Notes: generated by a model from the letters alone, not told the origin. A stretch of DNA of 64,000 nt from an uncultured Flavobacteriales bacterium (GCA_913030835.1 CAJWDP010000005.1:1-64000); one strand, 5' to 3'. Counted from the stretch's first letter, positions 13,859-29,785 are shown. Numbers and translations are program-made.

Positions 13859-14183
13859 AACTTAACGATTAGAAACTGAATCCAAAGTTTCAACTTGCCC
13901 CTGATTCTACTTTGTTAAATATATTCTGTCTTTTAATCAAGGAACCCTGCTATTTGAACCAACACGTGCAATCTTAACAAGGCAAATTTTCCTCTTAATC
14001 CAATACAAAACGTCCAAAATCGATCCATTTTGTAGCATTTCAGTTTCCCAACGTGAAACTCGCTAAATCTCCCATTTGGAAAGGGTTTCAGACTTTTCAG
14101 AAAGAATATTCCCATATATGGAAATCTTCACTTAACTACAGCCGATCTAGGCGGTATACTTGCTTAACCAAACACAAGAAAGC
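13859..14183. other. 325-base intergenic region with two GAAACT/AGTTTC dyads
   Basis: No gene is supported here. The hexamer GAAACT and its complement AGTTTC form two separate inverted repeats: 13872-13877 with 13886-13891 (8-nt loop) and 14042-14047 with 14055-14060 (7-nt loop, opposite order). A -7-like TATACTTG (14155-14162) precedes the next gene. A short minus-strand open frame of 60 codons has no recognisable features and is not called. Confidence 0.5.
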
Positions 14184-14663
14184 ATGAATACAGTTAAGAA
14201 CATAGCAATCAAAAGTCTTCTTCAAGGAATCGGAATCACAGCTGTTCTTATTCTATTTACTAATGTTTTTTACAGCCAGTCGATTACTTCCTCTGAACGA
14301 GGAACGGTAACCTACCGAATTATCGCTCATAAAGCGAATGAAACGGCAATCGTAAGTACCTCGAACACGGCGAATCTTAAGAAATCTACTTCTTTATTTA
14401 TGCCTACCGCATTTACTCCGGATTCTGATGGGATCAATGATCAGTTCGGAGCCAAAGGAATTAATGTAAGAGATTTTCACCTGGAAGTATTCAACCGCTG
14501 GGGAGAGAAGATATTCGAAAGTACAGATATCAATACGCACTGGGATGGAACTTATCAAGGCAGCGCTGCTCAACAGGGGTCGTATGTATACAATGTGACT
14601 GCTTATGATATGGAAACCAACGAAAATATTTCAACTGCTGGAACAGTTGCTCTACTTAGATAA
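14184..14663 (+). CDS. Minimal CHU_C (gliding-associated, T9SS type B) sorting-domain protein
   Basis: The ATG at 14184 gives 159 residues: a signal peptide or membrane anchor (GITAVLILFTNVFYSQS), about 45 residues without recognisable domain, and a complete CHU_C/TIGR04131 domain (about 73-159) with FMPTAFTPDSDGINDQFG, LEVFNRWGEKIFES, HWDGTYQG and GSYVYNVTAYD. This domain normally forms the last 80-90 residues of very large adhesins such as SprB and targets them to T9SS and a PorP/SprF partner. Here almost nothing precedes it. The PorP/SprF gene follows at once, matching the sprB-sprF pairing. It could be a truncated adhesin remnant, a free-standing subunit, or a plug; the reading frame is intact, so I call a functional gene. 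Confidence 0.88.
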   Translation: MNTVKNIAIKSLLQGIGITAVLILFTNVFYSQSITSSERGTVTYRIIAHKANETAIVSTSNTANLKKSTSLFMPTAFTPDSDGINDQFGAKGINVRDFHLEVFNRWGEKIFESTDINTHWDGTYQGSAAQQGSYVYNVTAYDMETNENISTAGTVALLR

Positions 14664-14700
14664 GCCAAAACTTGCACCCTACAAAAGTCTGTCCATTATG

Positions 14701-14730
14701 AAAAAGCCCCGATTCTGGGGCTTTTTGCTT
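14701..14730 (+). terminator. Rho-independent terminator after the CHU_C gene
   Basis: The 10-bp perfect stem AAAAAGCCCC / GGGGCTTTTT with a GATTCT loop lies 37 nt after the stop codon. Outer sequences CCTACAAAAG (14678) and CTTTGTAGG (14728) can pair and enclose it. It separates the CHU_C gene from its PorP/SprF partner, which then has its own -7 box. Confidence 0.9.
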
Positions 14731-14808
14731 TGTAGGAGCAACGGGTTCACTTGGAAACCGATTTGGGCATTTGGGAAATTCCCCCTTCTATAGCCCTACT
14801 TACGGGCG

Positions 14809-14816
14809 TACATTTG
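14809..14816 (+). promoter_or_regulatory. Bacteroidota -7 box of the porP/sprF-like gene
   Basis: TACATTTG is an exact TAnnTTTG match 24 nt before the ATG at 14841 and lies after the strong terminator at 14701, where a promoter is needed. A -33 TTG at proper spacing is not obvious. Confidence 0.5.
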
Positions 14817-14840
14817 AATAAACCTAAACAAACACCGAAA

Positions 14841-15791
14841 ATGAGAGCATTACTAACAACATTCATCGCACTACTGGTCGCACTGACCGGTTTCGCTCAG
14901 GATGCTCATTTCACCCAGTTCTATGCGAACCCCATTTATCTGAATCCTGCTCTTGCAGGAGTAAGAGGTTGCCCTACGGTGACTATGAACTATCGAAATC
15001 AATGGCCAGGGATCAAAGATGCCTATACGACTTACAGTACTTCTTTCGATCAATACTCAGAAAAGCTCAACGGTGGAGTTGGATTCAACATATTACACGA
15101 TCGTGCAGGAAGCGGACGATTGAAAACAACTGCAGCCAGTGCAGTGTATGCCTATCAGTATCAGCTAAGCAAGAAGGTTACGGTAAAATTCGGAGGTAAA
15201 GCCACTTTCGTGAATAAGAGCATCGACTGGAACCAATTGGTATTCGGAGATATGATCGATGCAAGAGAAGGTGTGATTTATGAAACACAACAATCATTCG
15301 GAGAGCCGGTCAATTATTTTGACTTCTCAGCGGGAGCCATGGTCTTTGCCGATTACTTCTTTGGTGGATTTGTTGTGGATCATCTTACTCAGCCTGCTGA
15401 GGGATTGCTTGATCGGTATGCTACTTCTCTGCCCAGAAAATATACCCTCCACGCAGGAGCCAACATCCCATTGGGTAAAATGTGGAAGAAAGATCGGTCG
15501 ATCTCTCCGAACATAATGGTCACCAAGCAAAACGAATTCACCCAGGTAAATATGGGACTGTATTTGAGAATGCGAGAGCTTGTAGTAGGCGGATGGTACC
15601 GAAACAACGACAGCTTTATCGTATTGGCCGGGGTTGAAACCGAGAAATTCAAATTTGCTTATTCCTACGATGTAAGCACATCGGGAATATTGAGACAGAC
15701 ATTGGGCTCACACGAGCTTTCTTACACCGCTTACCTGCCTTGTAAGAAGAAACAAAAGAAAGTAAGAAAACTGTATTGTCCGGTTTTCTAA
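14841..15791 (+). CDS. PorP/SprF-family outer-membrane protein (T9SS-associated)
   Basis: From the ATG at 14841 the product has 316 residues with a signal peptide (FIALLVALTGFAQ) directly followed by the family hallmark DAHFTQFYANPIYLNPALAG, then YRNQWPGI and a beta-barrel-like body (GGVGFNILHDRAG, FDFSAGAMVFADYFFGGFV). PorP/SprF proteins are outer-membrane barrels that help secrete or anchor proteins carrying CHU_C (type B) sorting domains, and genes are usually paired. The preceding 159-residue CHU_C protein is its evident partner. The C-terminal basic tail (KKKQKKVRKLY) is slightly unusual. Because several PorP paralogues exist per genome I do not assign porP or sprF. Confidence 0.93.
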   Translation: MRALLTTFIALLVALTGFAQDAHFTQFYANPIYLNPALAGVRGCPTVTMNYRNQWPGIKDAYTTYSTSFDQYSEKLNGGVGFNILHDRAGSGRLKTTAASAVYAYQYQLSKKVTVKFGGKATFVNKSIDWNQLVFGDMIDAREGVIYETQQSFGEPVNYFDFSAGAMVFADYFFGGFVVDHLTQPAEGLLDRYATSLPRKYTLHAGANIPLGKMWKKDRSISPNIMVTKQNEFTQVNMGLYLRMRELVVGGWYRNNDSFIVLAGVETEKFKFAYSYDVSTSGILRQTLGSHELSYTAYLPCKKKQKKVRKLYCPVF

Positions 15792-15906: not shown

Positions 15907-16686
15907 TCAATGAATGTGATTGTCGATTTCCGGGATAAATTCCTCAATATCCTTCACCCTTCTCTCGTCACTAGGGTGCGTGCTTAATAGCTCCGGCACA
16001 TGACCACCATTGGCCGCCATTTTTTTCCAAAAATTGATCGCATGGCTAGGATCGTAACCGGCCATTTTCATATACACCAATCCGATCTTATCCGATTCCG
16101 TTTCATGTACTCTCGAAAATTTTAACACACCAAGCTGAGAGCCGATTCCGGCATAGTACAATAAGTGCTGTTTATCCTCCGCTGTTGTACCCTGTAAAAC
16201 CCCCAAAGCAACCTGAACCCCCATTCCTTGGCTCATTCGTTCATTTCCATGCCGAGCAATCGCATGCGCAATTTCATGCCCCATAATCGCAGCGAGTTCA
16301 TCGTCCGTGTCTACCAAGTCCAAAATTCCCGTATATACGACTACTAAACCTCCTGGCATGCACCAGGCATTAATAGTTGGGTCCTCTACCGTATTGAACC
16401 GCCATTCAAAATTCTCAACTCGTTTTAGCAGATGGTGCTTCGTTAAATGTTGAATTGCCGCCTCCTTAATTTTATTTCCCACTGAAAGCACTCTTTGAGC
16501 ACGAGGATCTGATACAGGTAGGACTTGGGCGTCTGCCAAAAATTGTTCGTAAGAAGTTTTACTCATACTGATCAGCTGTTCCTCGGGCAACAATTTCAAT
16601 TGTTTCCGATCTGTAATAGGAACTTTTGCACACGAGACAAAGAAGATTAGAATACACGACAAGTTTAGAATTGACAATGGTTTCAT
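15907..16686 (-). CDS. M48-family metallopeptidase lipoprotein
   Basis: Starting at the ATG at 16686 gives a lipoprotein signal ending in FFVSC (Cys19); the longer open frame overlaps clpS. The 259-residue product has the zinc motif HEIAH at 137-141 (AAIMGHEIAHAIARHGNERM) and the downstream third ligand region HETESDKIGLVYM. This is the periplasmic LoiP/YcaL-like M48 group, which degrades misfolded outer-membrane or periplasmic proteins. The protein ends soon after the catalytic domain, without TPRs, so it is not the long BepA type. It lies after clpS with a 46-nt gap. Confidence 0.93.
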   Translation of the reverse strand: MKPLSILNLSCILIFFVSCAKVPITDRKQLKLLPEEQLISMSKTSYEQFLADAQVLPVSDPRAQRVLSVGNKIKEAAIQHLTKHHLLKRVENFEWRFNTVEDPTINAWCMPGGLVVVYTGILDLVDTDDELAAIMGHEIAHAIARHGNERMSQGMGVQVALGVLQGTTAEDKQHLLYYAGIGSQLGVLKFSRVHETESDKIGLVYMKMAGYDPSHAINFWKKMAANGGHVPELLSTHPSDERRVKDIEEFIPEIDNHIH

Positions 16687-16732
16687 GATTCGGAATAAAC
16701 TAATGATTACTGTTCGACAAAAAAGATGCCAC

Positions 16733-17008
16733 CTATTCAATTTCCACTGTAAGTCCTTTATTCAGCAATGCTGAACAAACGGGCTCTAGCTCGTCATACG
16801 TGCCAGATTTCACCTGGCACTTTCCTGTATAATGAACCAAATACGCACACTGTTCTGCCTGTAGATGCCGATGCTTACAATATTTGACCAGCTGCTTGAT
16901 CACAAAATCAAAGGTGTTCACATCGTCATTGTACAACACAATGTTTCTAATATCAATTAATTGCTCTAATTCCTTGATATCTATTTCTTCCTGTGTATCT
17001 GTGCTCAT
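16733..17008 (-). CDS. clpS: ATP-dependent Clp protease adaptor ClpS
   Basis: The 91-residue protein has the ClpS core: RNIVLYNDDVNTFDFVIKQL (Asn-Asp-Asp contact segment), HLQAEQCAYLVHYTGKCQV and the end LNKGLTVEIE. ClpS delivers proteins with destabilising N-terminal residues to ClpAP and blocks other substrates. An acidic N-terminal extension of about 20 residues (STDTQEEIDIKELEQL) is as expected for the ClpA-binding tail. It precedes the M48 protease gene, making a small proteolysis cluster. Confidence 0.93.
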   Translation of the reverse strand: MSTDTQEEIDIKELEQLIDIRNIVLYNDDVNTFDFVIKQLVKYCKHRHLQAEQCAYLVHYTGKCQVKSGTYDELEPVCSALLNKGLTVEIE

Positions 17009-17145: not shown

Positions 17146-20100
17146 TCATCTATTTTCCAGCTGCTCAGCCTCTTCCATGGTGATCTCTTTACCTTGGTAT
17201 AGCACCTTGATGTCCACTTCTAGCACATTCTGCTTATCCAACAGCTGCTTTCTGCTTCTCGCTGATTGTATCGTATTGAGCGGCCCGGAAGTAAGCTGCA
17301 GTGTTGTCTCATCAAGGAATTTTCGAACAATAATATCGCTATGCGGCAATAAAATCTCTGCTATTTCGGTCGGCACAGACCCGTCGTATGTGCCGATGTC
17401 AATGATGTATTCCAACCCTTCTATGACCGAACCAGAATCTCCATTCTCATCATCGTTAGGATTGGTTCCACCCCCTCCATCGGAAAAGACTCCATCTCCA
17501 AATTGCTCTATTAAATTACGTGCTTCAGAAAAAGTAGTTCTTTTACCATTGTAATATACCGTAACAAACGCATCTCGAACACCAATCCTGCGAACCTCAT
17601 CCTTTCTCAAACTAGCGGCTGGAATTTCCCTGTATCTTCCCGTTGAATATCTCAACAGCCCTCCTGAGGTCAGATTAACATTCAGCGGTTGAATATTAAA
17701 GAGGTCATCCCCCGTGACTTTCTTTGAAAACGCACCAATTTGTACGGTATAGAACAATCCTTTCAAAGATTCTACCGGTTGAGCATTTGGCGCATTTTCA
17801 AGCTCCTCATAATAGCTTATACCTGCTGTTGCAGAGTTCGAAGTAGTTGAACTACTGTTTTCAGAATTCGAATTATTTGATGTTGTTGTGCTTGCCGTAT
17901 TCGAATTCGCCGTTGAATTATTTGAAGAACTTTCAGCATTCGTGTTCGTCGACGTTCTGGAATTATCATTTGCTGCAAGCACTGGTGCTTCACCTAATGT
18001 TTCCACCTCTAGCCTTCTGGCCTCCGAAATCCGAATGGATTCGCCGTTGTATATAGCAACCACAAATGCATCATCAAATCCTAATCCTCTTACCTGATTC
18101 TTAACAGAATTCGCATTCTGATATCTGGTGAAATAACCTACTCTGTATCGGGTAATGTTGTTTCTTATTACCTCACCTGTTAGTGGCGTGAATCCTTTAA
18201 ACAAGTCCTGAGGTATCGGTCTTGAAAAAGCTCCAACCTGCACACGATAAACCAATCCCTCCGGCATCTTTGGATTTATTGGAATAGGGTTTTCTTCAGA
18301 ATAGCTGGATGATTCCCTTGAATTGTCAATTGAAACGATATCTTCTTCAATTTTGTCAGGGGCTTCAAAATTCGTTCCTCCTATTTCACTAATATCCAAC
18401 TCACCTGGACTAAGCGGAGCTTTGTCAAAATTTGACCTTCCAACAGCTTTGATCATACTAGCCAGCTCTTGATTTGGCATCGCCTCCAGGTAGTCATTTT
18501 GCGCCAATACGACCTGTTCCTTCATGAATTCCAGTTCATCCAGATCGCTCTCGACGGAGTCCGCTCTGTTCAGCTTTGCACTAGCCAATTGCTCAAGCTC
18601 AATAGCTTGACTCAACAAATTCTGTTTTTCTTGCTCATCTTCAGATTCAGCAGCTCGCTTGTTTAGTTCAGCAGCCTTTAGTTTATCTTGTTCAGCGCTG
18701 GACCTTAATTGAGGCACCAAAGACTCACCATTTTTTATGCTATTTTCAATGCGATCCAACCGATCTAAAAATTGCATGTGTGCCTCTTTGTATTCCGGTG
18801 ATTTTCTAACTTCTTTCACACTTTCATCAGTCAATGAAGCTAGCGTCTGATCATCTTTAATTCGCGTCTCAACCTGGTCAGCATTTGAATTTAGTTTAGT
18901 GGAAAGCTGTTTCTTTTGCTCTCCTGTTCTTTGCATTTCCTCACTCTCTGCCAAAAGCCTATTTTTCTCCTCCTCATTCTTAACCACCTGAGCGCTATCA
19001 GATAACACTTTCGCCTGCATGATCATGTCATTCCCCTCAGAAAGGAGAGTTGCGGCCAATGTTCTTTGCTTTGTCAATTTATCATTTACCTGATCAAAGT
19101 CGTTATTGCCGTCGGCAGGATAAACATTGAGCGCAGCCACCTCAGCTGCTTTCATATTCATGGAATTTGCAGCTGCCATATTCCTTATCGCCAGTTTCTC
19201 GAGCGTATTTGCCTTTTTCAGTGAATCGTTTTTCGCTGCAGCGTCTTTAATAGAAGATGCGTTCTCCCTTATGGTCTGAGCTTCATCAAATTGACGTTCC
19301 GCTACACGTCGGTAATTTATCGCATCCGTATAGGTAGAATTTGATCTGTCATTCGTTGAAATTGAGTTGATATCACTGGTCAATGATTCATTCAAGCTTT
19401 TACTTTGATTGAATTCCAACTCATTGGCCTGAGCAATTTCAGGTGCAACTTTGAGTTCAATTTTGGCTCTTTTCTTTTCGATCTTGGAAATTTTCTTGTC
19501 CAGCTTTTTTGTTTCCTTTTCATCCGCCTGCTCCTTTTCCATCTCGAGTATTTCAATCTCCGTGTCATACTCATTGATGTCCTCCAGCTGATCACTTACT
19601 TCTGCCAGCTTTTCTTGTGAGGTGCTAGAATTGAAAGAGTCCAAATTCGCCAGCGAAGTTTCCTCAATTTCCTCTACGGGGGTATTCTCTTTCGTAGATG
19701 GCGTATAATTGGTTGACACCTCATCAACGACATCTGTTTTATCCTCGGTTTTTTCAACACGTACATTCGCCGCAACTTCATTCAGTTCAGACGATAGACT
19801 CTTTAATTCAACCAATGCGGCTTCTTCCAGTGCAGAGGCTTCTTTTAAAAGTTGGCTTTTCGTTGAGTCATCCTGTGTTTGAGATGCTTTTTCTCTCATT
19901 TCCTTGGCTGAATCAAATGCTCGATTCACATTGGCCACCTTTTCGTCAGATGGCAAAGATTCAATAGAATCAATACCACCCGCTACTTCTATTTCCTTTT
20001 TGTAATTATCGATTTCTTCTATCAATTCTTTCTTTTCGAATTGATTGATCTCAACAAATGACTCGGCCACTTCGATTTCCTTCTTCAATACCTTTTCTTC

Positions 20101-23100
20101 CTGCTTTTCAATCTGTGCAATTAGCTTGCTTCGTTTCGATTCAGACATTTCTGAATCCGACTCCAGATCAATTTTCAGTGCCTCCAGCTCCAATTGCTCT
20201 GCATTCAAATCTTCCAACTCATCTTTTAGATCATCCATTACTTTTTCCGATTCCTCCGAAGCATATGATTTTTCATCCGTATAGGAGAATTCTTCTACTG
20301 AAGCAACAATTGTATTTTCAGAGGAAGTAACTGTTTCCGCTTCCTCTATTGCATTTTCACTGGTGCTTGTTTCCGAGGAATCGGCTGAACTGGATGTATT
20401 TGATGCGATCTCTGTTTCTGATGATGAGCGAATTACCTCTTCACTTTCAGCAATCTGATCATTCAGCTCCGCTTTTTTCCGGTTCAAAACATCAATTTCA
20501 TTTTGAATTTCCTCTTTTTCATTTTCATTGGCCTCCTTATACGACTCGTTCAATATCGCAACGTCCTCTTCAATCGATTCAACCCACTCATTCTTCAGCT
20601 CTATCTCAGCACTTGCTCTTGATATCGGGTTAGAAATTGTAGTGAGCCCACTTGCTTTAGTTTCAAAATCCTCATATTTCTCCTCATCCACTCTATTTAA
20701 TAACGATTCATTGCTGCTCGTTTCAGAACTATTGTTGACTTCTGAGCTGGTAGTACTTGCAATTTCCATCCATTCATTTCGCTCCTCCTCTTTCCTCACT
20801 TTTTCAAGCTTCAGCTCTTCTGCCTTATCGAGGTATTCCGTCCTTTTCAACTCGTCGGTCTCGGTGGAAGCAAGAGTCTCCATTTTCTCTATATCCTCAG
20901 CAAGTTCATCGATCCATTCGTTCGCAATATTTTCCTTTTCTCTTGCCTTTTCAATGGGATCTGTAATTTGTTCGGCTGCATTTTCCCGGTTCGACAACTC
21001 AACATATTCTTCTTTGTTGCCAATTTCATTTACCGAAATAGAGGTTTCAGTATTAGTTTCAGTCTCAGCTATATTATTCTCATCATTTTGAGCTATTTCC
21101 TCAACCAATTTCGTTTCCTTCACTTTCAACTCCTCGATCGTAGTTTCAAGTTGTTCACGCGTTGCGGGATCAGTTTCGCTCTTCAAGGCCTCATCAATTG
21201 CTGCAATGTCTCTTGACAGACGTTCCGCCTCAACTCTATTTGCCTCGTTTACCCGAGCGGTTTTATCCGGTCCATCAGGCAATTCACTCAAGGCCTGGCG
21301 AACAGAATCATAGGATTCTTCTTCTTTCGATGCCATAATTGCAGCCACCCGATCTTTTAATTGTTGACCGGGTCCGCTAGATGTATCGGTTTCTGTTTTT
21401 TCCTCGATTTGATTTTCTGCTAGAACTGTAGTAGTACTTTCAATAGAGGCATCTATTTCTCCCGACTGTATTTCCTCGCTCAGAGCCGTTTTCTCTTCCT
21501 CCGTTAATTCAGTGGCTTCTACATCAGCCAAATCATCGAAGAGACGCTCCAGAACCTCTGCCTCATCATTTAGCACGTCCGCATCTTTCTGCACTTCTTT
21601 CGCAAAAGCAAAAGCTTTGTCTGCATCTTTCTCTGTCTGCACAAGCAGTTCTTTTGCCTCATCAATTCTGATCTGAATATCCGGCTTTTGTTTCTTAGAG
21701 GCAGAATTGTACTGGGTTTCAAGATTCCTGATTTCCTGACGTATCTCGTCTTCATCGTTTCTCAGCTGCCTTGCTTTATTCATCAATTCCGTAGCCTCGG
21801 ATTGTTTTTCCCGAGCTTTCGCCGTGATCTGCTCAAATTCACTTTTGTCATCAACATCAAGTTTCCGTGCCTCCTCAACATACGATTTCAGCTCTTCCAG
21901 TTTGGTAATGGCATCTTCTGTACTTGAAGCATTTAGCGCTGTCCTGATGTCGTTCGCATAAATTTGTGATTGTTCCGCTTCTTTCTTTTTCTTTTCGTAC
22001 TGTTCTTCCAGAGTATTACCCAGATTCAGCGCTCCTGTGGCAACTTCATTATCGTTTTGTGATTTTGCATGGTATTCAGAAGCCAGTTGGATCAGCTGCC
22101 TTTTTTCCTGGGGGTTATCCACATTGTCAATCCCTTTTAAAATCTCTTCTGCCTTTTTTGCATTTTCCCGCGCAGATTTCATTTTCTCATTTGCAACAAA
22201 AAAAGCAACATCTCTTTTCTCTTTTATTTCCTGCATTTCTCTTGCTGACTGTGCTGCCATTGTATCGGCCAATGCAATCAGGTCTTCCTCATTGATTATT
22301 CCAAGCAATGTATCCTGGGCACTTACTGCCGTAGTGTCTTCAAGAGGTTCAAGTTTGTCCGCATTTTGCTCTACGTCCGATATCTGCTTCAAGACTTCAG
22401 CCATAATCAGCTCAGAGTTTTCGACCTCTTCATCAAATAAGTTGTTAATGACCAAGCGCTCTTCTGCACCATCCATTACAAGAGAGATTTCCTGCTTTAG
22501 TGGTTTCAGCTCCTTCTGATAGGGCACCTCAAACAAACCCGTATGGACTTTATCGGATTGTGGTGACTCTATGATGTATTGGTATCGGCCGCTTTTAGGT
22601 AAGATGATGAGAAACTTGCCGCTTTCACTTTTTGAATTGTAAACACCGACAATTTCATCTTTGATTACATCATTCACCTTAATTACAACACCCATGTTGT
22701 TTGGGTCTATGTCATTTTGAAAACGACCTGCGATAATGGCATTCAAAATTGGGTAGATTTCCACTTTAACATTGTAGACATCTACATAACCTCCTCTGGA
22801 TGATCTGGTAGAAGCAAAATACGCTTCCTTATTCAAAGAATCAACGATATACAATATGTCGTCATCCGGAGTGTTGATCTTGAAATCCATATTTTGAGCA
22901 GGACCGAATGTATTGTATTCACTATCATATGAACATCTGAATACATCGTAACCTCCCATTGAAGAATGTCCTTTCGAGCAGAAATAAAATGTCATTCCAT
23001 CTGGATGCAAAAAGCCATAATCCTCGTCAGAATCGGTATTTACCTGAACAGGCAATTTTTGTGCATTTGACCACTTTCCATTTGGTAATTTCTTGATTTG

Positions 23101-23781
23101 ATAAATGTCTTTGCCCGTTTCACCATCCTTACCATAGCTTGAATAAAATATATTATTCTGCTGGGTTGAAGGAAAATGTACCAATGGTCGATGGCCGATC
23201 TTTTTGTCATAGCTGGATTGAAATTCATCTGTTACTAAGACTTTACCCCCTATGTTCCTGAGGTCATAGCTATACTGCAGTCGATTGAACACTACTTCCT
23301 TCTTGTTGATCACGACCAATTCTGAAATGTTCTTCAACAGTTTTTTACCATTGTTGCACATTCGAATCTCCTGATCAACATTTAAACGTTCATATTGCTT
23401 TGTTGAACCTGCGCTTTTAAACTTGTTGTATGCCTTAATAGCATCTTCAAAACGATAATTCAGGTGGTATGCTTTTCCAATGAAATAATAGGCTCTTACA
23501 TCAATTGTGGGGTCTTTAATTGCGTATTGCAGATGTCCGAGACCTTTGAGTTTGTCTTCCTCAGAATAAAGTAAGCAAGCCCCGTATTTAAAATTCAGAT
23601 CTGCATTCGTCTGATCCAAAGCAAGGAGTGTTGAGAATTTTTCTTTTCCCTCGATGTAATTGCCCTCATCAAAAAGTTTATCGGCTACCTTGAAGTCTTC
23701 CTTGGATTGACCAAAAAAAGAAATGGTTACCATAATAGAGATAACCAAGAAAAAAATTCTATTTACAATTAGCGTATACAC
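17146..23781 (-). CDS. Giant periplasmic protein: TPR, PD40 propeller, regulatory-like domain, ~1300-residue helical repeat region, three SPOR-like modules
   Basis: The 2211-residue product starts at a GTG followed by a good signal peptide (IFFLVISIMVTISFFGQ). Domains in order: TPR helices (about 25-165: DKLFDEGNYIEGKEKF, AYYFIGKAYHLNYRFEDA); a PD40/WD40-like propeller (about 195-345: DEDYGFLHPDGMTFYFCS, GGYDVFRC); a carboxypeptidase-regulatory-like domain (about 350-440); a very acidic Glu/Lys/Ser-rich helical region (about 450-1790); and SPOR-like modules at about 1838-1925 (VYRVQVGAFSRP, RYRVGYFTRYQNA), 2000-2090 (FYTVQIGAFSKK) and a diverged one at 2118-2211, the first two separated by a Ser/Thr/Asn linker. 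The front half matches PorE-type T9SS envelope proteins, but the OmpA-like peptidoglycan-binding end is replaced by SPOR, which also binds glycan strands. I infer an envelope-spanning scaffold. It is the last gene of a long operon, 31 nt after plsY. Confidence 0.9.
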   Translation of the reverse strand: MYTLIVNRIFFLVISIMVTISFFGQSKEDFKVADKLFDEGNYIEGKEKFSTLLALDQTNADLNFKYGACLLYSEEDKLKGLGHLQYAIKDPTIDVRAYYFIGKAYHLNYRFEDAIKAYNKFKSAGSTKQYERLNVDQEIRMCNNGKKLLKNISELVVINKKEVVFNRLQYSYDLRNIGGKVLVTDEFQSSYDKKIGHRPLVHFPSTQQNNIFYSSYGKDGETGKDIYQIKKLPNGKWSNAQKLPVQVNTDSDEDYGFLHPDGMTFYFCSKGHSSMGGYDVFRCSYDSEYNTFGPAQNMDFKINTPDDDILYIVDSLNKEAYFASTRSSRGGYVDVYNVKVEIYPILNAIIAGRFQNDIDPNNMGVVIKVNDVIKDEIVGVYNSKSESGKFLIILPKSGRYQYIIESPQSDKVHTGLFEVPYQKELKPLKQEISLVMDGAEERLVINNLFDEEVENSELIMAEVLKQISDVEQNADKLEPLEDTTAVSAQDTLLGIINEEDLIALADTMAAQSAREMQEIKEKRDVAFFVANEKMKSARENAKKAEEILKGIDNVDNPQEKRQLIQLASEYHAKSQNDNEVATGALNLGNTLEEQYEKKKKEAEQSQIYANDIRTALNASSTEDAITKLEELKSYVEEARKLDVDDKSEFEQITAKAREKQSEATELMNKARQLRNDEDEIRQEIRNLETQYNSASKKQKPDIQIRIDEAKELLVQTEKDADKAFAFAKEVQKDADVLNDEAEVLERLFDDLADVEATELTEEEKTALSEEIQSGEIDASIESTTTVLAENQIEEKTETDTSSGPGQQLKDRVAAIMASKEEESYDSVRQALSELPDGPDKTARVNEANRVEAERLSRDIAAIDEALKSETDPATREQLETTIEELKVKETKLVEEIAQNDENNIAETETNTETSISVNEIGNKEEYVELSNRENAAEQITDPIEKAREKENIANEWIDELAEDIEKMETLASTETDELKRTEYLDKAEELKLEKVRKEEERNEWMEIASTTSSEVNNSSETSSNESLLNRVDEEKYEDFETKASGLTTISNPISRASAEIELKNEWVESIEEDVAILNESYKEANENEKEEIQNEIDVLNRKKAELNDQIAESEEVIRSSSETEIASNTSSSADSSETSTSENAIEEAETVTSSENTIVASVEEFSYTDEKSYASEESEKVMDDLKDELEDLNAEQLELEALKIDLESDSEMSESKRSKLIAQIEKQEEKVLKKEIEVAESFVEINQFEKKELIEEIDNYKKEIEVAGGIDSIESLPSDEKVANVNRAFDSAKEMREKASQTQDDSTKSQLLKEASALEEAALVELKSLSSELNEVAANVRVEKTEDKTDVVDEVSTNYTPSTKENTPVEEIEETSLANLDSFNSSTSQEKLAEVSDQLEDINEYDTEIEILEMEKEQADEKETKKLDKKISKIEKKRAKIELKVAPEIAQANELEFNQSKSLNESLTSDINSISTNDRSNSTYTDAINYRRVAERQFDEAQTIRENASSIKDAAAKNDSLKKANTLEKLAIRNMAAANSMNMKAAEVAALNVYPADGNNDFDQVNDKLTKQRTLAATLLSEGNDMIMQAKVLSDSAQVVKNEEEKNRLLAESEEMQRTGEQKKQLSTKLNSNADQVETRIKDDQTLASLTDESVKEVRKSPEYKEAHMQFLDRLDRIENSIKNGESLVPQLRSSAEQDKLKAAELNKRAAESEDEQEKQNLLSQAIELEQLASAKLNRADSVESDLDELEFMKEQVVLAQNDYLEAMPNQELASMIKAVGRSNFDKAPLSPGELDISEIGGTNFEAPDKIEEDIVSIDNSRESSSYSEENPIPINPKMPEGLVYRVQVGAFSRPIPQDLFKGFTPLTGEVIRNNITRYRVGYFTRYQNANSVKNQVRGLGFDDAFVVAIYNGESIRISEARRLEVETLGEAPVLAANDNSRTSTNTNAESSSNNSTANSNTASTTTSNNSNSENSSSTTSNSATAGISYYEELENAPNAQPVESLKGLFYTVQIGAFSKKVTGDDLFNIQPLNVNLTSGGLLRYSTGRYREIPAASLRKDEVRRIGVRDAFVTVYYNGKRTTFSEARNLIEQFGDGVFSDGGGGTNPNDDENGDSGSVIEGLEYIIDIGTYDGSVPTEIAEILLPHSDIIVRKFLDETTLQLTSGPLNTIQSARSRKQLLDKQNVLEVDIKVLYQGKEITMEEAEQLENR

Positions 23782-23812: not shown

Positions 23813-24472
23813 TTATTTGTTATTTCTTCTGAGATTGAAGCTGACTTTCATCTTATTTTCCTCTTTTTTCAGCAGTCTGTCAATATTGGATCGATGCGTG
23901 TAAATCACTAATAATGACATGACTATGGAAAAATAGATCAGAGTAGGTGTGTCTTTCGCCTTGAAAATGAAAATTATTATGAATGGGAAAGCAACCGCAG
24001 CACAAAGGGCCCCGAGTGAAACGTATTTGCTGATTAAAAAGGTAATTAAGAAAACGCCGAATGCAATTCCGGCAGCTTCCGGATGTATGGCGAAAATAAT
24101 TCCCAACAAGGTGGCTACACCTTTTCCGCCTTTAAATTTGGCGTAAATGGGATAAATATGACCAAATACAGCAGACATTCCTACCGCAAGCTGAAAGTTC
24201 ACTAGCTGATTCGTACCGTGTCCGAACTCACAGAACATACTCAAAATGGTAACTGCTGCCCACCCTTTTATGATGTCCATAAAAAGAACCGGAAAACCTG
24301 CCCTTTTACCGAGTACTCTGAAGGTATTTGTAGCTCCCGCATTTTTACTCCCGTGCTCACGAACGTCAACACCAAAAAAAAGTGTTCCGATCCACACAGC
24401 AGAAGGCACAGACCCAATTAAATAAGCGAGTACTAATGCAATAATATTGTACAAATTTAGGATGTCATCCAT
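23813..24472 (-). CDS. plsY: Glycerol-3-phosphate acyltransferase PlsY
   Basis: This inner-membrane enzyme transfers acyl groups from acyl-phosphate to glycerol 3-phosphate, starting phospholipid synthesis. The three conserved cytoplasmic/active segments are present: YLIGSVPSAVWIG, VREHGSKNAGATNTFRVLGK and FGHIYPIYAKFKGGKGVAT. Length (219) and five or six hydrophobic segments fit the family. A basic C-terminal tail follows the last membrane helix. It begins 5 nt after the unknown 1490-residue gene and is the seventh gene of the operon that starts at 34462; glycerol 3-phosphate supply links it loosely to tpiA. Confidence 0.95.
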   Translation of the reverse strand: MDDILNLYNIIALVLAYLIGSVPSAVWIGTLFFGVDVREHGSKNAGATNTFRVLGKRAGFPVLFMDIIKGWAAVTILSMFCEFGHGTNQLVNFQLAVGMSAVFGHIYPIYAKFKGGKGVATLLGIIFAIHPEAAGIAFGVFLITFLISKYVSLGALCAAVAFPFIIIFIFKAKDTPTLIYFSIVMSLLVIYTHRSNIDRLLKKEENKMKVSFNLRRNNK

Positions 24473-24477
24473 ATGCT

Positions 24478-27400
24478 CTAATCTTCCATTCTTCGTAAAA
24501 AAGCTCTAGCTTTCGTTGGCGAAGATAACATAAACTGAAAATCTTCTACTCCTTTTTCTCCTTTGAACTTCGTATTATCCGTCTTGGTATCTTTGATTAT
24601 TTCATTGTATTCTTTATTAGCAGCATACGTCTGGAAAATACCTTTCTTGCCACTTTTATAGTTGAAATAATAAAAGTTCTTTCCGTCCAATTTCAAATAA
24701 ATATCAACCATATCGCCAGTTGAACGCTTCGTGAGTTCAATATAACCCTCGACATATTTATACACTTGTTTCTTCAAAATGTTACCAATGCCAATTTTTC
24801 CGACACTTCTATAGGAGTTCGTGGATTTGTTCCAGACAAATTTCACATCCGGTAAAATCATGGACTTCAACAGTTCTTCAGCGAAGTTTTTCTTTTTGAT
24901 CTCCCCATGAATGGTCAGATCGGAAATAATATTATCCGACTTTTCCAGACCACATATTTCTCGCAACGCAAGTTCAAAGGAAGGACTGGAATAGTCGAAA
25001 GACTCAAATCCCACTTTTGAAACGATGTCCTTGCCCATTTTTTCAAGTGCGTTTTCATTGAACGGAAAGTTCAACACAATCGTCGCTACGCCTTCCACTT
25101 CCTTTTTCACCGGAGAATAAAACACCTTACCATACGGCACAATGCTCAACTGTCCTGAATTGATTCCAAAGTTCATTTGACCCTGACCTCTAACAAAACA
25201 ACTATCCCGACTTAACGTAACCAAATTACCGGGTAAAGACTCTTCTCTCAGCTTTTCTTTTTCACCAATCTGATATACCTGTTTTTTCTTATTGAACCTC
25301 AAGAATCCTTGAGCCACAACTACATTCTTGTGTTTCTCATTCAATTTATTCGACAAAAATGTAGGATACAGGGATACAGAATCCGTATTCATAATAATTC
25401 CCGCTGCTACAGGATTTCCATTTTCGTCTTTCAGATCTTTCTCAACAGGAATGTAAATGTCTTTTGGGTCAATAGGCGATGAAAAGCTCATCCAGTTTCT
25501 TGCTATTCCGCCACAATTATGACTGATTTTAGTTAGCCCAGTGAAAAGTAGCTCCTTTTGTGCAGAAAACATTTCAACCTGTCCATAGTAGCTGAATTGA
25601 GGGCTCAATTTGAACTCCATTTTCTCCTTAATCTCACCTTTTGCATAGCTTCTTAGGGCGGTATCGGGCTCAATTTTATCAAAATAGATCTCCCTTGTTT
25701 TACCCAGCTCATCCTTGAACTGATAATAGCCCGACGACTTATACTCATTCTTGGCTTTGATGTCCGTAACGGCTTTAAGTATGGTATGGTATTTTGTTAT
25801 GTAATTGGTAACAATACTCGAATTGTTCAATGTCCGCATTTTGGCCTTACGCTCAATGTACACCTTATTGCTATCCGGATATATTCTTGAATCAGCAACC
25901 GTAATGTACTCTAAGTCTGTGCACGTAATCACTTTTTTCCGGACATCAAATCTGGCTTTAGGCGCCCTAAAGCTGAGAGAATCCTGTTTAGGATGTACTG
26001 AGAAGAAATTCGGACCGGCCAGATCCATGTCTGTTTCTATTTTCACATCGCTATCCCCTTTTTTACCGGCTTCCATTTCAAGATCATCACTCTTCATGTA
26101 CCAATTGAACTTGTCCATATAGCATATGTACTGGTTATCAGGAAATTCCACGAAGGACTCACCATCATTGGACTTGAACTCACTTTTCTTGGTATCGAAA
26201 TCAATGTGCGCATTCACATTGGTTGTCCTAAAGGCCAGCGCATCCAAATCAAAACTCAACAAGTCGAAGTCGGAGGTATCTGCATCGATCTGTCTTTCTT
26301 TGAATTTAAAATTTACTGCTAACAGCTCACCTTTTTTCATGATCGTCATTAATCCGTTTCCGGTCATCCCCTCTGGTCGCAAGGCCAATGTTCCGTTGAG
26401 TTTGGCAAGTGAATCATAAAAATCGAGAAGGTCTGTTTTATTAATACTGGATGCATATAAGACTTCTTCTTCAGGCACATACACCACTTTCACATTCGAC
26501 CCTCTCACATTGGGCAATTCGGGTGGACCAGGACCTCCTTTGTTCACATAAACCTCAGCTATAGCACTCAGAGAATTTGGTAAAAAGGTAATTTCTGACG
26601 ATTCCGCATGCGACGTTAAATAATCAATTTCTCCACTACCCTGCAGACCTTTATTACTGAGTTTAATTTCGTTTTCGTAGTTGGCCTTACCTAAATACAA
26701 CGGAATACCCCCTTCCGGAGCATCCCTTTGAAATCCTAAAGAATAATCATCCTGAACCGTAAGTGATTCCGTAATGTCAGGAAAAATTGAAGCAGAAACC
26801 AATTTGCCATCAAAGTGCATTCCTCTTGTAGCAAAGTTATCCAGACTATCCATGATAAACGGCTCTACTTCGAAATAGAATTTCTCTCTATCGTATTGTC
26901 CCTCATGGATATTTTTATTATCGTAAAAAACAAATGTCTTTTTTGTAATATTCATGACAGGATATTCGTGTTTTGTTGTATCCTTTCCAGATTTGTTTTT
27001 TTCGTGATCTATATCGATGTATCCGCGTGCCCCGACCAACTGACTTTGAAGTTTTCGAATTACATCTCCTGAAGTGTGTTTTTCCTTTCGCTTAACAAAA
27101 AATCGAATCCAATTGGTTTCAATCAAATTCAATCTAAACTTGTCGTAGTCAAAAGAAAACTCATCCCCGTATACTTCCGTTCTTCCGGCTAGAATAACGC
27201 CTTTGAATGTAAAGCTCCTATTCTTTTTAAGTATGATCTTTCCTTCATCTGGAAACACTTTGGTTCCCTGAGCACGACTTAAGGTGATGTTTTTAACCCC
27301 TTCCAGAGCCAGATCATAATTCAGCAAACTCAATGATCCATTGTATTTAACCCCACTTTCCGGCTCTGACACAAATTGTATTACGTCAAAATCCATTCTT

Positions 27401-28950
27401 CCTGATCTAGCTCCAATCCATCTATACATTCTCGATTTCACCGAAATTGTTCCCTTTGCTGAATTGTAGACCAGCAACCCCATGTTGTTGAGGCTGTATA
27501 ACAAGGGCTTCAATTGCGACATCGTTTTGCCTAAATAAGTTGCTAGATCTATCGCCTTAAAGTTCCTGGATCCATTTTTTTTCACAAAAGCCTTGATTCT
27601 AACCAATGGGTTGACACCCATCCCTGTCAATCTATCGTATCGGTACTGAGAGAAATAATTCTGGGATTCAAAGAAGGCTTTGTTCTCAGTACTGCCCATT
27701 AGTGTGCCAAAATTCATATTATCATCACCTATACGCCACGAGAGTGCTTCGAACTCCATATCAATTTTGTGAAACGAATTGAAGTAAGGGCTCTGACCCG
27801 TGCCTTGCCCCCCACGTATGAGTGTCAATTTTCGCTTTTCTAGTCCCTCATGAACATATTTAAGCTCAATTCCCGGATGATAAATCGAATCCTCCCCCAG
27901 CTTAATTTGAAGCTCTGCCTTTTCTGATGCAATACTTGTTGCGTTGATAACATAAATGATAGACTCTGCTGTGATGAATGGCTTCCCCTCGTACTTAATG
28001 GTAATTTTCGCCAGTTCTTCAAATGTACCTTTTCCAATGAGCCTTCCACCTTCCATCGTGAACCCACCATCATAGTCAATGTCCTGAAATATATTTTTTA
28101 TTATCAAACGTTTATCATAAGATTCGAACCGAGGAAACACCACTTTATCAGGTCCTCTATTAGAAAGAACTTTTTCGGCTAAAACACCAAGTATTGGTTC
28201 CTCAAAGTAGCTATTGTAAAACAAAACTGAATCCGCATTGTATCCCGCACTTTTCAGTCCTATCTTATAGTTCTTAAGCTCAGCATATGTCTCTTTTGGA
28301 TCCAACCCAGCGCGTTTCCAGGTAACCTTGCCACCTTTACCAAGCCAAATGTTCTTAAGTGGATCAAAAGTGCCGGCAGTTTGATAAATCACGCCGCTGT
28401 CTCCTTTGGACATGCATTTCAAGTCAATTTTTTCGAAAACAACCAGCGGAGTTTTGTCTTTGAACTTAAATTTAAATTTCGGAGCACTTGCCTGCCATAC
28501 CGTTGATGAAGATTGAAAAATGATATTCTCATTGAACAAGTTTGAGCTCATTTTGAGGAAATCGGAGAATTTTTGTTTATTTCTTGCCGCCAACTGATCG
28601 ATTGTTTGGTGCCAATCTTCAAAAGCACCGTCAGGCTGTTCTTTTCTAAAAAAGTTGGATAATGAAGTCAAATAGGCCTTGTAATCAGGGTAAGGCTTCA
28701 ATTTTTGCTTGAGAATCAGATTGGCAGTTTTATACACGATCATCCTCTGATTACTACTGAACTTACCTCCGTACCATTGTGTTTCAAATTCCTCCATGAA
28801 TCTTTTTGCATCCCCCCTATCAACCGTTGCCAACCAATCCTTCGATTGCTCAAAAAACTCGGTAGAGTCTGTAGAAAAAGAACTAAACTGTCCATGGGTC
28901 AAGGTTGTCAATAAACCCAACACAACTATTAACGCACTTTTTAATCTCAT
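24478..28950 (-). CDS. Very large secreted protein of unknown function (1490 residues)
   Basis: I start at the ATG at 28950, which is followed by a signal peptide (ALIVVLGLLTTLTHGQ); the longer frame would overlap prmA. I recognise no named domain. After an alpha-helical N-terminal part (to about residue 170) the sequence is dominated by short alternating beta-type segments with repeated patterns of the kind F-x-F-K-x-K and ending phrases such as LVVFEKIDLKC, GSLSLLNYDLALEGVK, TFKGVILAGRTEVYGDEF, HYPVMNI-like blocks. This suggests a long beta-structure, perhaps of the AsmA/TamB/LptD-like lipid-conduit kind, but that is speculation. There is no T9SS sorting domain, so a periplasmic or outer-membrane-associated location is likely. 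It lies between prmA (4 nt) and plsY (5 nt). Confidence 0.9.
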   Translation of the reverse strand: MRLKSALIVVLGLLTTLTHGQFSSFSTDSTEFFEQSKDWLATVDRGDAKRFMEEFETQWYGGKFSSNQRMIVYKTANLILKQKLKPYPDYKAYLTSLSNFFRKEQPDGAFEDWHQTIDQLAARNKQKFSDFLKMSSNLFNENIIFQSSSTVWQASAPKFKFKFKDKTPLVVFEKIDLKCMSKGDSGVIYQTAGTFDPLKNIWLGKGGKVTWKRAGLDPKETYAELKNYKIGLKSAGYNADSVLFYNSYFEEPILGVLAEKVLSNRGPDKVVFPRFESYDKRLIIKNIFQDIDYDGGFTMEGGRLIGKGTFEELAKITIKYEGKPFITAESIIYVINATSIASEKAELQIKLGEDSIYHPGIELKYVHEGLEKRKLTLIRGGQGTGQSPYFNSFHKIDMEFEALSWRIGDDNMNFGTLMGSTENKAFFESQNYFSQYRYDRLTGMGVNPLVRIKAFVKKNGSRNFKAIDLATYLGKTMSQLKPLLYSLNNMGLLVYNSAKGTISVKSRMYRWIGARSGRMDFDVIQFVSEPESGVKYNGSLSLLNYDLALEGVKNITLSRAQGTKVFPDEGKIILKKNRSFTFKGVILAGRTEVYGDEFSFDYDKFRLNLIETNWIRFFVKRKEKHTSGDVIRKLQSQLVGARGYIDIDHEKNKSGKDTTKHEYPVMNITKKTFVFYDNKNIHEGQYDREKFYFEVEPFIMDSLDNFATRGMHFDGKLVSASIFPDITESLTVQDDYSLGFQRDAPEGGIPLYLGKANYENEIKLSNKGLQGSGEIDYLTSHAESSEITFLPNSLSAIAEVYVNKGGPGPPELPNVRGSNVKVVYVPEEEVLYASSINKTDLLDFYDSLAKLNGTLALRPEGMTGNGLMTIMKKGELLAVNFKFKERQIDADTSDFDLLSFDLDALAFRTTNVNAHIDFDTKKSEFKSNDGESFVEFPDNQYICYMDKFNWYMKSDDLEMEAGKKGDSDVKIETDMDLAGPNFFSVHPKQDSLSFRAPKARFDVRKKVITCTDLEYITVADSRIYPDSNKVYIERKAKMRTLNNSSIVTNYITKYHTILKAVTDIKAKNEYKSSGYYQFKDELGKTREIYFDKIEPDTALRSYAKGEIKEKMEFKLSPQFSYYGQVEMFSAQKELLFTGLTKISHNCGGIARNWMSFSSPIDPKDIYIPVEKDLKDENGNPVAAGIIMNTDSVSLYPTFLSNKLNEKHKNVVVAQGFLRFNKKKQVYQIGEKEKLREESLPGNLVTLSRDSCFVRGQGQMNFGINSGQLSIVPYGKVFYSPVKKEVEGVATIVLNFPFNENALEKMGKDIVSKVGFESFDYSSPSFELALREICGLEKSDNIISDLTIHGEIKKKNFAEELLKSMILPDVKFVWNKSTNSYRSVGKIGIGNILKKQVYKYVEGYIELTKRSTGDMVDIYLKLDGKNFYYFNYKSGKKGIFQTYAANKEYNEIIKDTKTDNTKFKGEKGVEDFQFMLSSPTKARAFLRRMED

Positions 28951-28954
28951 AAAT

Positions 28955-29785
28955 TTATACCTGGTAAGATAATAACGACCAACCGTCCTTTTCCATTTTT
29001 TTATCAAAAACCAATCCCAAATTCTCTGCCTTACTCTCTAATAGCTCATTATCGGTGGTGTAAAACCCACTTAAAAGCAACCGACCTCCATGATTCAATG
29101 CATTCACATATATCTCCATGTCCTTTAGTAGAATGTTACGATTAATATTAGCTAAAATAACATCAAATTTTTGGTTGTCAATCTGTTCTGCCCCCCCTTT
29201 GTAAATGCAAATATCTTCTAACTTATTCAACTTAAAATTTTCTATAGAATTGTGGTAAGCGTAATCTTCAATATCAATTCCAACTACACGATCAGCTCCT
29301 CTCTTTTTTGCCAAGATGGCAAGAATCCCGGTGCCGCACCCCATGTCCAGCAAGTTCTTTCCAATCAAAGGAACATCCAGCAATTCCTGAACCATCAGAT
29401 ATGTTGTTGGATGATGGCCCGTCCCAAAAGACATATTCGGTGCAATAACAATTTCTAGTGCATCTCCATCCGATGGGGAATGAAACGGTGCTCGAATCAA
29501 ACACTTTCTATCCACCCATATCGGATCAAATTCATCTTCCCATTTCTTGTTCCAATTTGTCGATTCAATTTCCCTAACACGATAGGAAAACTCCAGTGCT
29601 CCTATTTTCAGCGCATGCAAATTGTCAAATAAATCCTCATCAAATTTGACCTGTTGAATGTATGCTTTCACCCCAGCTGAAGTGTTTACAAAACTTTCGA
29701 ATTCTATTTCAGAAAGTTCATAAACCAACACCTCTCTCGCCGGGAGCAAAGGATTCAAAAAAAATTCAACTTCTACGTAGTTCAT
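28955..29785 (-). CDS. prmA: Ribosomal protein L11 methyltransferase
   Basis: The ATG at 29785 (MNYVEVEFFL), two bases after the tpiA stop, is chosen over an upstream frame running inside tpiA. The 276-residue protein has the PrmA signatures: NMSFGTGHHPTTYLM, the SAM-binding motif LLDMGCGTGILAILA with acidic end VVGIDIEDYA, and the catalytic region DVILANINRNIL. It trimethylates L11 using S-adenosylmethionine. It is part of the tpiA-centred operon, an arrangement I recall as common in Bacteroidota. Confidence 0.95.
   Translation of the reverse strand: MNYVEVEFFLNPLLPAREVLVYELSEIEFESFVNTSAGVKAYIQQVKFDEDLFDNLHALKIGALEFSYRVREIESTNWNKKWEDEFDPIWVDRKCLIRAPFHSPSDGDALEIVIAPNMSFGTGHHPTTYLMVQELLDVPLIGKNLLDMGCGTGILAILAKKRGADRVVGIDIEDYAYHNSIENFKLNKLEDICIYKGGAEQIDNQKFDVILANINRNILLKDMEIYVNALNHGGRLLLSGFYTTDNELLESKAENLGLVFDKKMEKDGWSLLSYQV

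Follow-up and report, generated by a model that had tools for sequence, protein, structure and literature searches.

What might be the use of a protein that carries at one end a head of the kind found in PorE, an envelope protein of the type IX secretion system (T9SS), at the other end SPOR modules of a wall-binding kind, and more than a thousand residues in between? The question is raised by a gene in a 64,000-nucleotide stretch of DNA from an uncultured Flavobacteriales bacterium (GCA_913030835.1 CAJWDP010000005.1:1-64000), hereafter the window. The answer that we tentatively prefer is that its product, here called the giant, is a secreted scaffold of the periplasm that is anchored in the cell wall and ties the outer membrane to it, with its SPOR modules suggesting the division septum as its site. 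The gene (17146..23781) is a single uninterrupted reading frame on the minus strand, running from 23781 to 17146 as 2211 codons without an internal stop and specifying the 2211 residues given in the original prediction. Its start codon is a GTG at 23781, 31 bases past plsY, and its stop codon ends at 17146. The start, VYT, is conserved in the closest relative (L001), and because this relative is 59.7% identical to the giant along the entire length, the resemblance is far beyond chance. The giant is genuine, very large and exported. It begins with a signal peptide (residues 1 to 25, 23707..23781), MYTLIVNRIFFLVISIMVTISFFGQ, which is of the plain type and has no lipobox cysteine; no lipobox was found in any giant family member. 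From the N to the C terminus there follow a TPR domain, a TolB-like PD40 propeller, a transthyretin/regulatory-like domain, an acidic helix-forming spacer and three SPOR-fold modules, all of whose coordinates below refer to the minus strand. Pfam searches with the giant's single sequence gave weak SPOR, PD40 and TPR matches, and the domains were therefore tested on an alignment of the family; a PHROGs search gave no match.

The head was modelled with AlphaFold2 (mean predicted local distance difference test [pLDDT] score, 84), and the model was compared with solved chains. Residues 26 to 150 (23332..23706) matched TPR chains by fold, with Z scores of about 10 to 11, and were also matched by Pfam TPR. 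For residues 157 to 345 (22747..23313), the best propeller match was TolB of TolB/Pal (2hqs; Z 11.3 over 128 residues, root mean square deviation 3.0), and Pfam PD40 was found in all 17 aligned family members. Residues 348 to 451 (22429..22740) matched transthyretin-type domains by fold (Z 9.8), with Pfam CarboxypepD_reg found in 3 of the 17. When a profile of the giant heads was aligned with a profile of seven PorE-like proteins from the same genome, the two were related with a probability of 100% (E 1.2e-71, 447 columns); the alignment has a large gap in the propeller, which is shorter in the giant than in PorE. The TPR, PD40 and regulatory-like order ascribed at the outset to PorE-type proteins was thus borne out by fold, by Pfam and by profile-profile comparison, and the N-terminal domains are, as judged by these profiles, homologous to those of PorE-type proteins of the same taxonomic order.

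A stronger claim of the original prediction, that the giant is a PorE whose OmpA end was replaced by SPOR, did not hold. The giant scored 62.6 bits against the T9SS_PorE model (NF052230), well short of the curated cut-off of 600, whereas a separate PorE-like protein of the same genome (L077), which has no lipobox in its N-terminal sequence either, scored 531 bits and covers PorE end to end, with OmpA. Because the genome keeps this second protein, the giant is neither PorE itself nor PorE with a swapped end. The C terminus of the giant gave no OmpA match, SPOR standing there instead. Against the CHU_0125 family model (NF053607), the giant scored 77 bits, through the propeller only, where the cut-off is 620, and it lacks the OmpA end of that family. 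In a tree of heads whose paralogues came from this genome only, the giants formed a single, fully supported clade set against 14 paralogues; nearest to it, with moderate support (88/85), were two proteins that have the head and no OmpA. The genome (3.1 Mb) contains 30 PorE-related matching stretches (L077 to L106), most of them ending in OmpA and a few consisting of the head only. The giant therefore shares with PorE of Porphyromonas gingivalis the succession of TPR, PD40 propeller and carboxypeptidase-regulatory-like domain and, by prediction, a wall-binding C terminus, which in PorE binds peptidoglycan (PMC7192894); it differs in having SPOR and not OmpA, a helical spacer of about 1330 residues and no lipidation, and in not being the genome's best PorE match. 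With the CHU_0125 family of OmpA-like outer-membrane integrity proteins it has in common a related propeller head and an outer-membrane-to-wall logic, but those proteins end in OmpA and have neither spacer nor SPOR. Loss of CHU_0125 damages outer-membrane integrity (PMC5891637).

The tail was predicted to consist of three SPOR-fold modules, with pLDDT values mostly above 80 within modules, at residues 1841 to 1931 (17989..18261), 2007 to 2100 (17482..17763) and 2121 to 2210 (17152..17421). The best solved matches were the SPOR domain of RlpA for module 3 (6i05; Z 7.8) and that of CwlC for module 2 (1x60; Z 6.7, 28% identity). These Z values are moderate; Pfam SPOR independently matched 32 of 32 family tails. 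Foldseek, run on the whole three-module tail, gave no match below an E value of 0.001, and a second alignment ranked SPOR chains at the top. The family profile picks out two strong SPOR modules in every tail read, followed by none to three weaker ones, members of the family carrying two to five SPOR-fold modules in all. SPOR domains bind glycan strands without peptides, prefer denuded glycan, and in RlpA carry the signature Q270/A273/F274 (PMC6895207). The Gln and the residues following it, spaced as in RlpA, are kept in modules 1 and 2 of the giants in 59 of 59 rows each, in module 3 in 3 of 42 rows and in later modules never, some rows being one genome counted twice. The conserved Gln and aromatic residue that mark the glycan site of SPOR-domain proteins are thus present in modules 1 and 2. 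Since the signature is kept in these two and lost from the rest, modules 1 and 2 are likely to bind glycan, and the others probably do not, or not by the same means. The original prediction of three glycan-binding modules was accordingly right about the fold of all three, of which only two keep the glycan-site residues. The genome also encodes two Amidase_3 amidases, one of which shares its frame with a Pfam SPOR match, and these could produce denuded glycan.

Head and tail are separated by the acidic helix-forming spacer (residues 452 to 1780, 18442..22428). Counted over residues 451 to 1780 (about 1330), it contains 232 Glu and 117 Lys, 326 acidic and 167 basic residues and few Pro or Gly, with an isoelectric point of 4.37, in good agreement with the roughly 1300 helix-forming, Glu/Lys-rich residues first described. 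Tandem DNA repeats were rejected as its origin, the yield being a single weak 21-base match, as was a simple continuous coiled coil, because a helix/heptad-range signal was significant in few 90-residue windows. Hairpin repeats fit the spacer better. A search seeded with seven look-alike stretches and iterated over 25 family members recovered 68 copies of a degenerate repeat of about 60 residues in 21 of the 25 proteins (consensus EELEEEAEQLFKEAEDLREEAANEKDESEKAELLKEANELEELAIQKQQKAAELYEEADE), and shuffled and reversed controls gave zero copies in every round. At that threshold the other four proteins had no copy, and three f9 proteins are without one in the final listing. The pattern suggests a pair of helices on either side of a short polar turn. 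The giant of the window has seven copies, at residues 846 to 906 (21064..21246), 952 to 1012 (20746..20928), 1061 to 1121 (20419..20601), 1280 to 1328 (19798..19944), 1489 to 1549 (19135..19317), 1580 to 1638 (18868..19044) and 1691 to 1751 (18529..18711).

The giant is neither a lone chimera, as the word chimera in its first description might suggest, nor an assembly artefact; it represents an order-wide family within Bacteroidota. The order was sampled with 299 genomes, of which 243 matched the tail at an E value of 1e-5, many of these matches perhaps being to ordinary SPOR proteins. The tail lay in a frame of at least 1400 residues in at least 114 of the 299, with a median of about 2156 residues and a maximum of 3551 among the matches listed. 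Eight families (f1, f2, f3, f4, f7, f8, f9 and f10) were checked and have full-length proteins with both the head and the SPOR pair, which rules out an artefact, and f5 and f13 have heads that match about as strongly. Only ordinary PorE-like heads were seen in genomes of f6, f11 and f12 and in some of f8 and f13. The survey of Bacteroidota called for by the original prediction thus found giants across one order and, among 392 genomes of the phylum, none beyond it: long-frame tails were confined to the order and elsewhere shorter SPOR proteins alone matched, an absence that holds at the sensitivity of the tail profile, which may miss distant versions. The named relatives (L001 to L020) come mostly from metagenome-assembled genomes of Flavobacteriales, Vicingaceae and Crocinitomicaceae. 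One of them (L016) is a complete Bacteroidota-type giant locus on a contig labelled Verrucomicrobia, most likely a misnamed bin. Directly upstream of the 3551-residue giant, a separate 154-residue frame (L071:3160-3621) matches the TPR part of the giant only and is perhaps a duplication remnant. Three genomes of f9 (G059, G068 and G125, genus g37) have frames of about 1150 residues whose heads resemble the giant's more weakly (E about 1e-39 to 1e-51) and which may be shortened relatives.

In the window the gene order is tpiA, prmA, a gene for a 1509-residue secreted protein, plsY, the giant gene, clpS and a gene for an M48 peptidase. Four of these neighbours, all on the minus strand, recur when loci are compared. 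Upstream, plsY (23813..24472) is conserved in many loci, and in seven families (f1, f2, f3, f4, f7, f8 and f10) the gene for the 1509-residue protein (24478..29007), for which neither Pfam nor the PDB gave a convincing relative, precedes the giant, either immediately or at a distance of one gene, with or without plsY. Downstream, most loci have clpS (16733..17008), usually with the M48 peptidase gene (15907..16740). In f9 the giant is at another genomic location. The 1509-residue protein is conserved in the order, and certain families from other orders in the class have it too, without an adjoining giant; its gene usually follows prmA or lies beside plsY. Near the giant gene of the window and facing it, at 14160-15791, are a gene for a CHU_C-type protein with a T9SS signal and a PorP/SprF barrel gene (14751-15791); a PorP-type partner fixed by neighbourhood was rejected, as no other locus read has such a gene adjoining. 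Further along the window, 52506-55457 encodes a 983-residue protein with Amidase_2, CUB and PKD domains.

On the scaffold reading, SPOR modules 1 and 2 would grip peptide-stripped glycan strands, such as other SPOR proteins encounter at the division septum, and the third SPOR-fold module would serve some other use. The TPR-propeller-regulatory head may engage outer-membrane or envelope proteins, the same module being present in PorE, which binds the PorP barrel of the outer membrane (PMC9143113), and the long acidic helical-repeat spacer would set the reach between head and tail. Where the wall splits, the giant would in this way keep the outer membrane in place or pull it inwards, which in Proteobacteria is the task of Tol-Pal. 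The SPOR domains make the septum a likely place for the giant, and this septal step is the weakest part of the proposal, a general tether being a safer reading than a role in division. Several observations weigh against the scaffold as we propose it. The protein has no lipid anchor, so its contact with the outer membrane must go through a partner, and in the loci read no PorP-type gene recurs beside the giant. The giant gene does not adjoin a known divisome gene. Finally, the giant was not seen in some near-complete genomes of the order and is therefore not indispensable everywhere. A bolder version, which we consider unlikely, would make the giant the order's dedicated device for outer-membrane constriction, doing the work of Tol-Pal with one chain, which recognises the septum by SPOR while its head pins or pulls the outer membrane across an adjustable spacer. 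With TolB, Pal and CpoB the giant does share a TPR domain and a TolB-like propeller coupled to predicted wall binding; it differs in being one chain, in having SPOR in the place of a Pal/OmpA domain, and in lacking a known motor partner, only a TolB-like propeller having been seen and no search for TolQRA made.

The same domains could serve other ends. Most deserving of attention, if somewhat doubtful, is a role in anchoring surface machinery to the wall generally: along the whole length of the cell, the head would hold either a PorP-type barrel with its associated surface protein or some other complex of the outer membrane, with SPOR as a grip only and no septal targeting. In its favour, this genome is rich in PorE-like paralogues, but the anchor that is strictly kept in the giants is SPOR and not OmpA, SPOR prefers denuded glycan (PMC6895207), and the missing PorP neighbour counts here as well. 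We think it rather improbable that the giant is an envelope-assembly scaffold that acts with the 1509-residue secreted protein, perhaps also with PlsY, to move or place lipid or outer-membrane material: the two genes keep company in seven families, at some loci in the absence of plsY, but the secreted protein is also encoded in other orders with no giant beside it, the giant of f9 is located elsewhere, and neither Pfam nor the PDB gives the neighbour a convincing relative.

A component of the T9SS, as the original prediction suggested, seems very unlikely. The head is indeed of PorE type, and SprA is present in 292 of the 299 genomes of the order; being nearly universal there and present even in genomes that showed no giant, it makes co-occurrence with the T9SS uninformative within the order. 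Much of the phylum is known to have the T9SS, whereas the giant was found in one order only, which leaves the head module as the sole link, and the genome has its separate PorE-like protein with OmpA. Equally little credence is due to the idea that the SPOR modules bind proteins and not glycan, the giant being a scaffold for wall synthases. Module 3 and the later modules lack the glycan signature, and DedD and DamX interact with penicillin-binding proteins (PMC7642682), but modules 1 and 2 keep that signature strictly. FtsN, DamX, DedD and RlpA share with the giant a C-terminal SPOR fold and the conserved Gln signature, and differ from it in that the giant has two to five such modules and its giant spacer; proteins of their type are a few hundred residues long and are not known to have a TPR-propeller head. 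No SPOR-PD40 giant was found described in the open-access literature, in line with the initial view that the architecture belongs to no described system.

Bacteroidetes have yielded no tol-pal loci, and PorE has been put forward as their compact Tol-Pal or outer-membrane tether, with possible septal trafficking (PMC12204202), a proposal to which the scaffold reading runs parallel. For the question of how the outer membrane may be held or constricted in Bacteroidota without tol-pal, the giant is a concrete candidate, conserved order-wide and combining a PorE/TolB-type head with wall-binding domains of septum type, across a spacer whose length differs severalfold among species. It is also clear from the family that the same head may be followed by a wall anchor of either kind, OmpA or SPOR.
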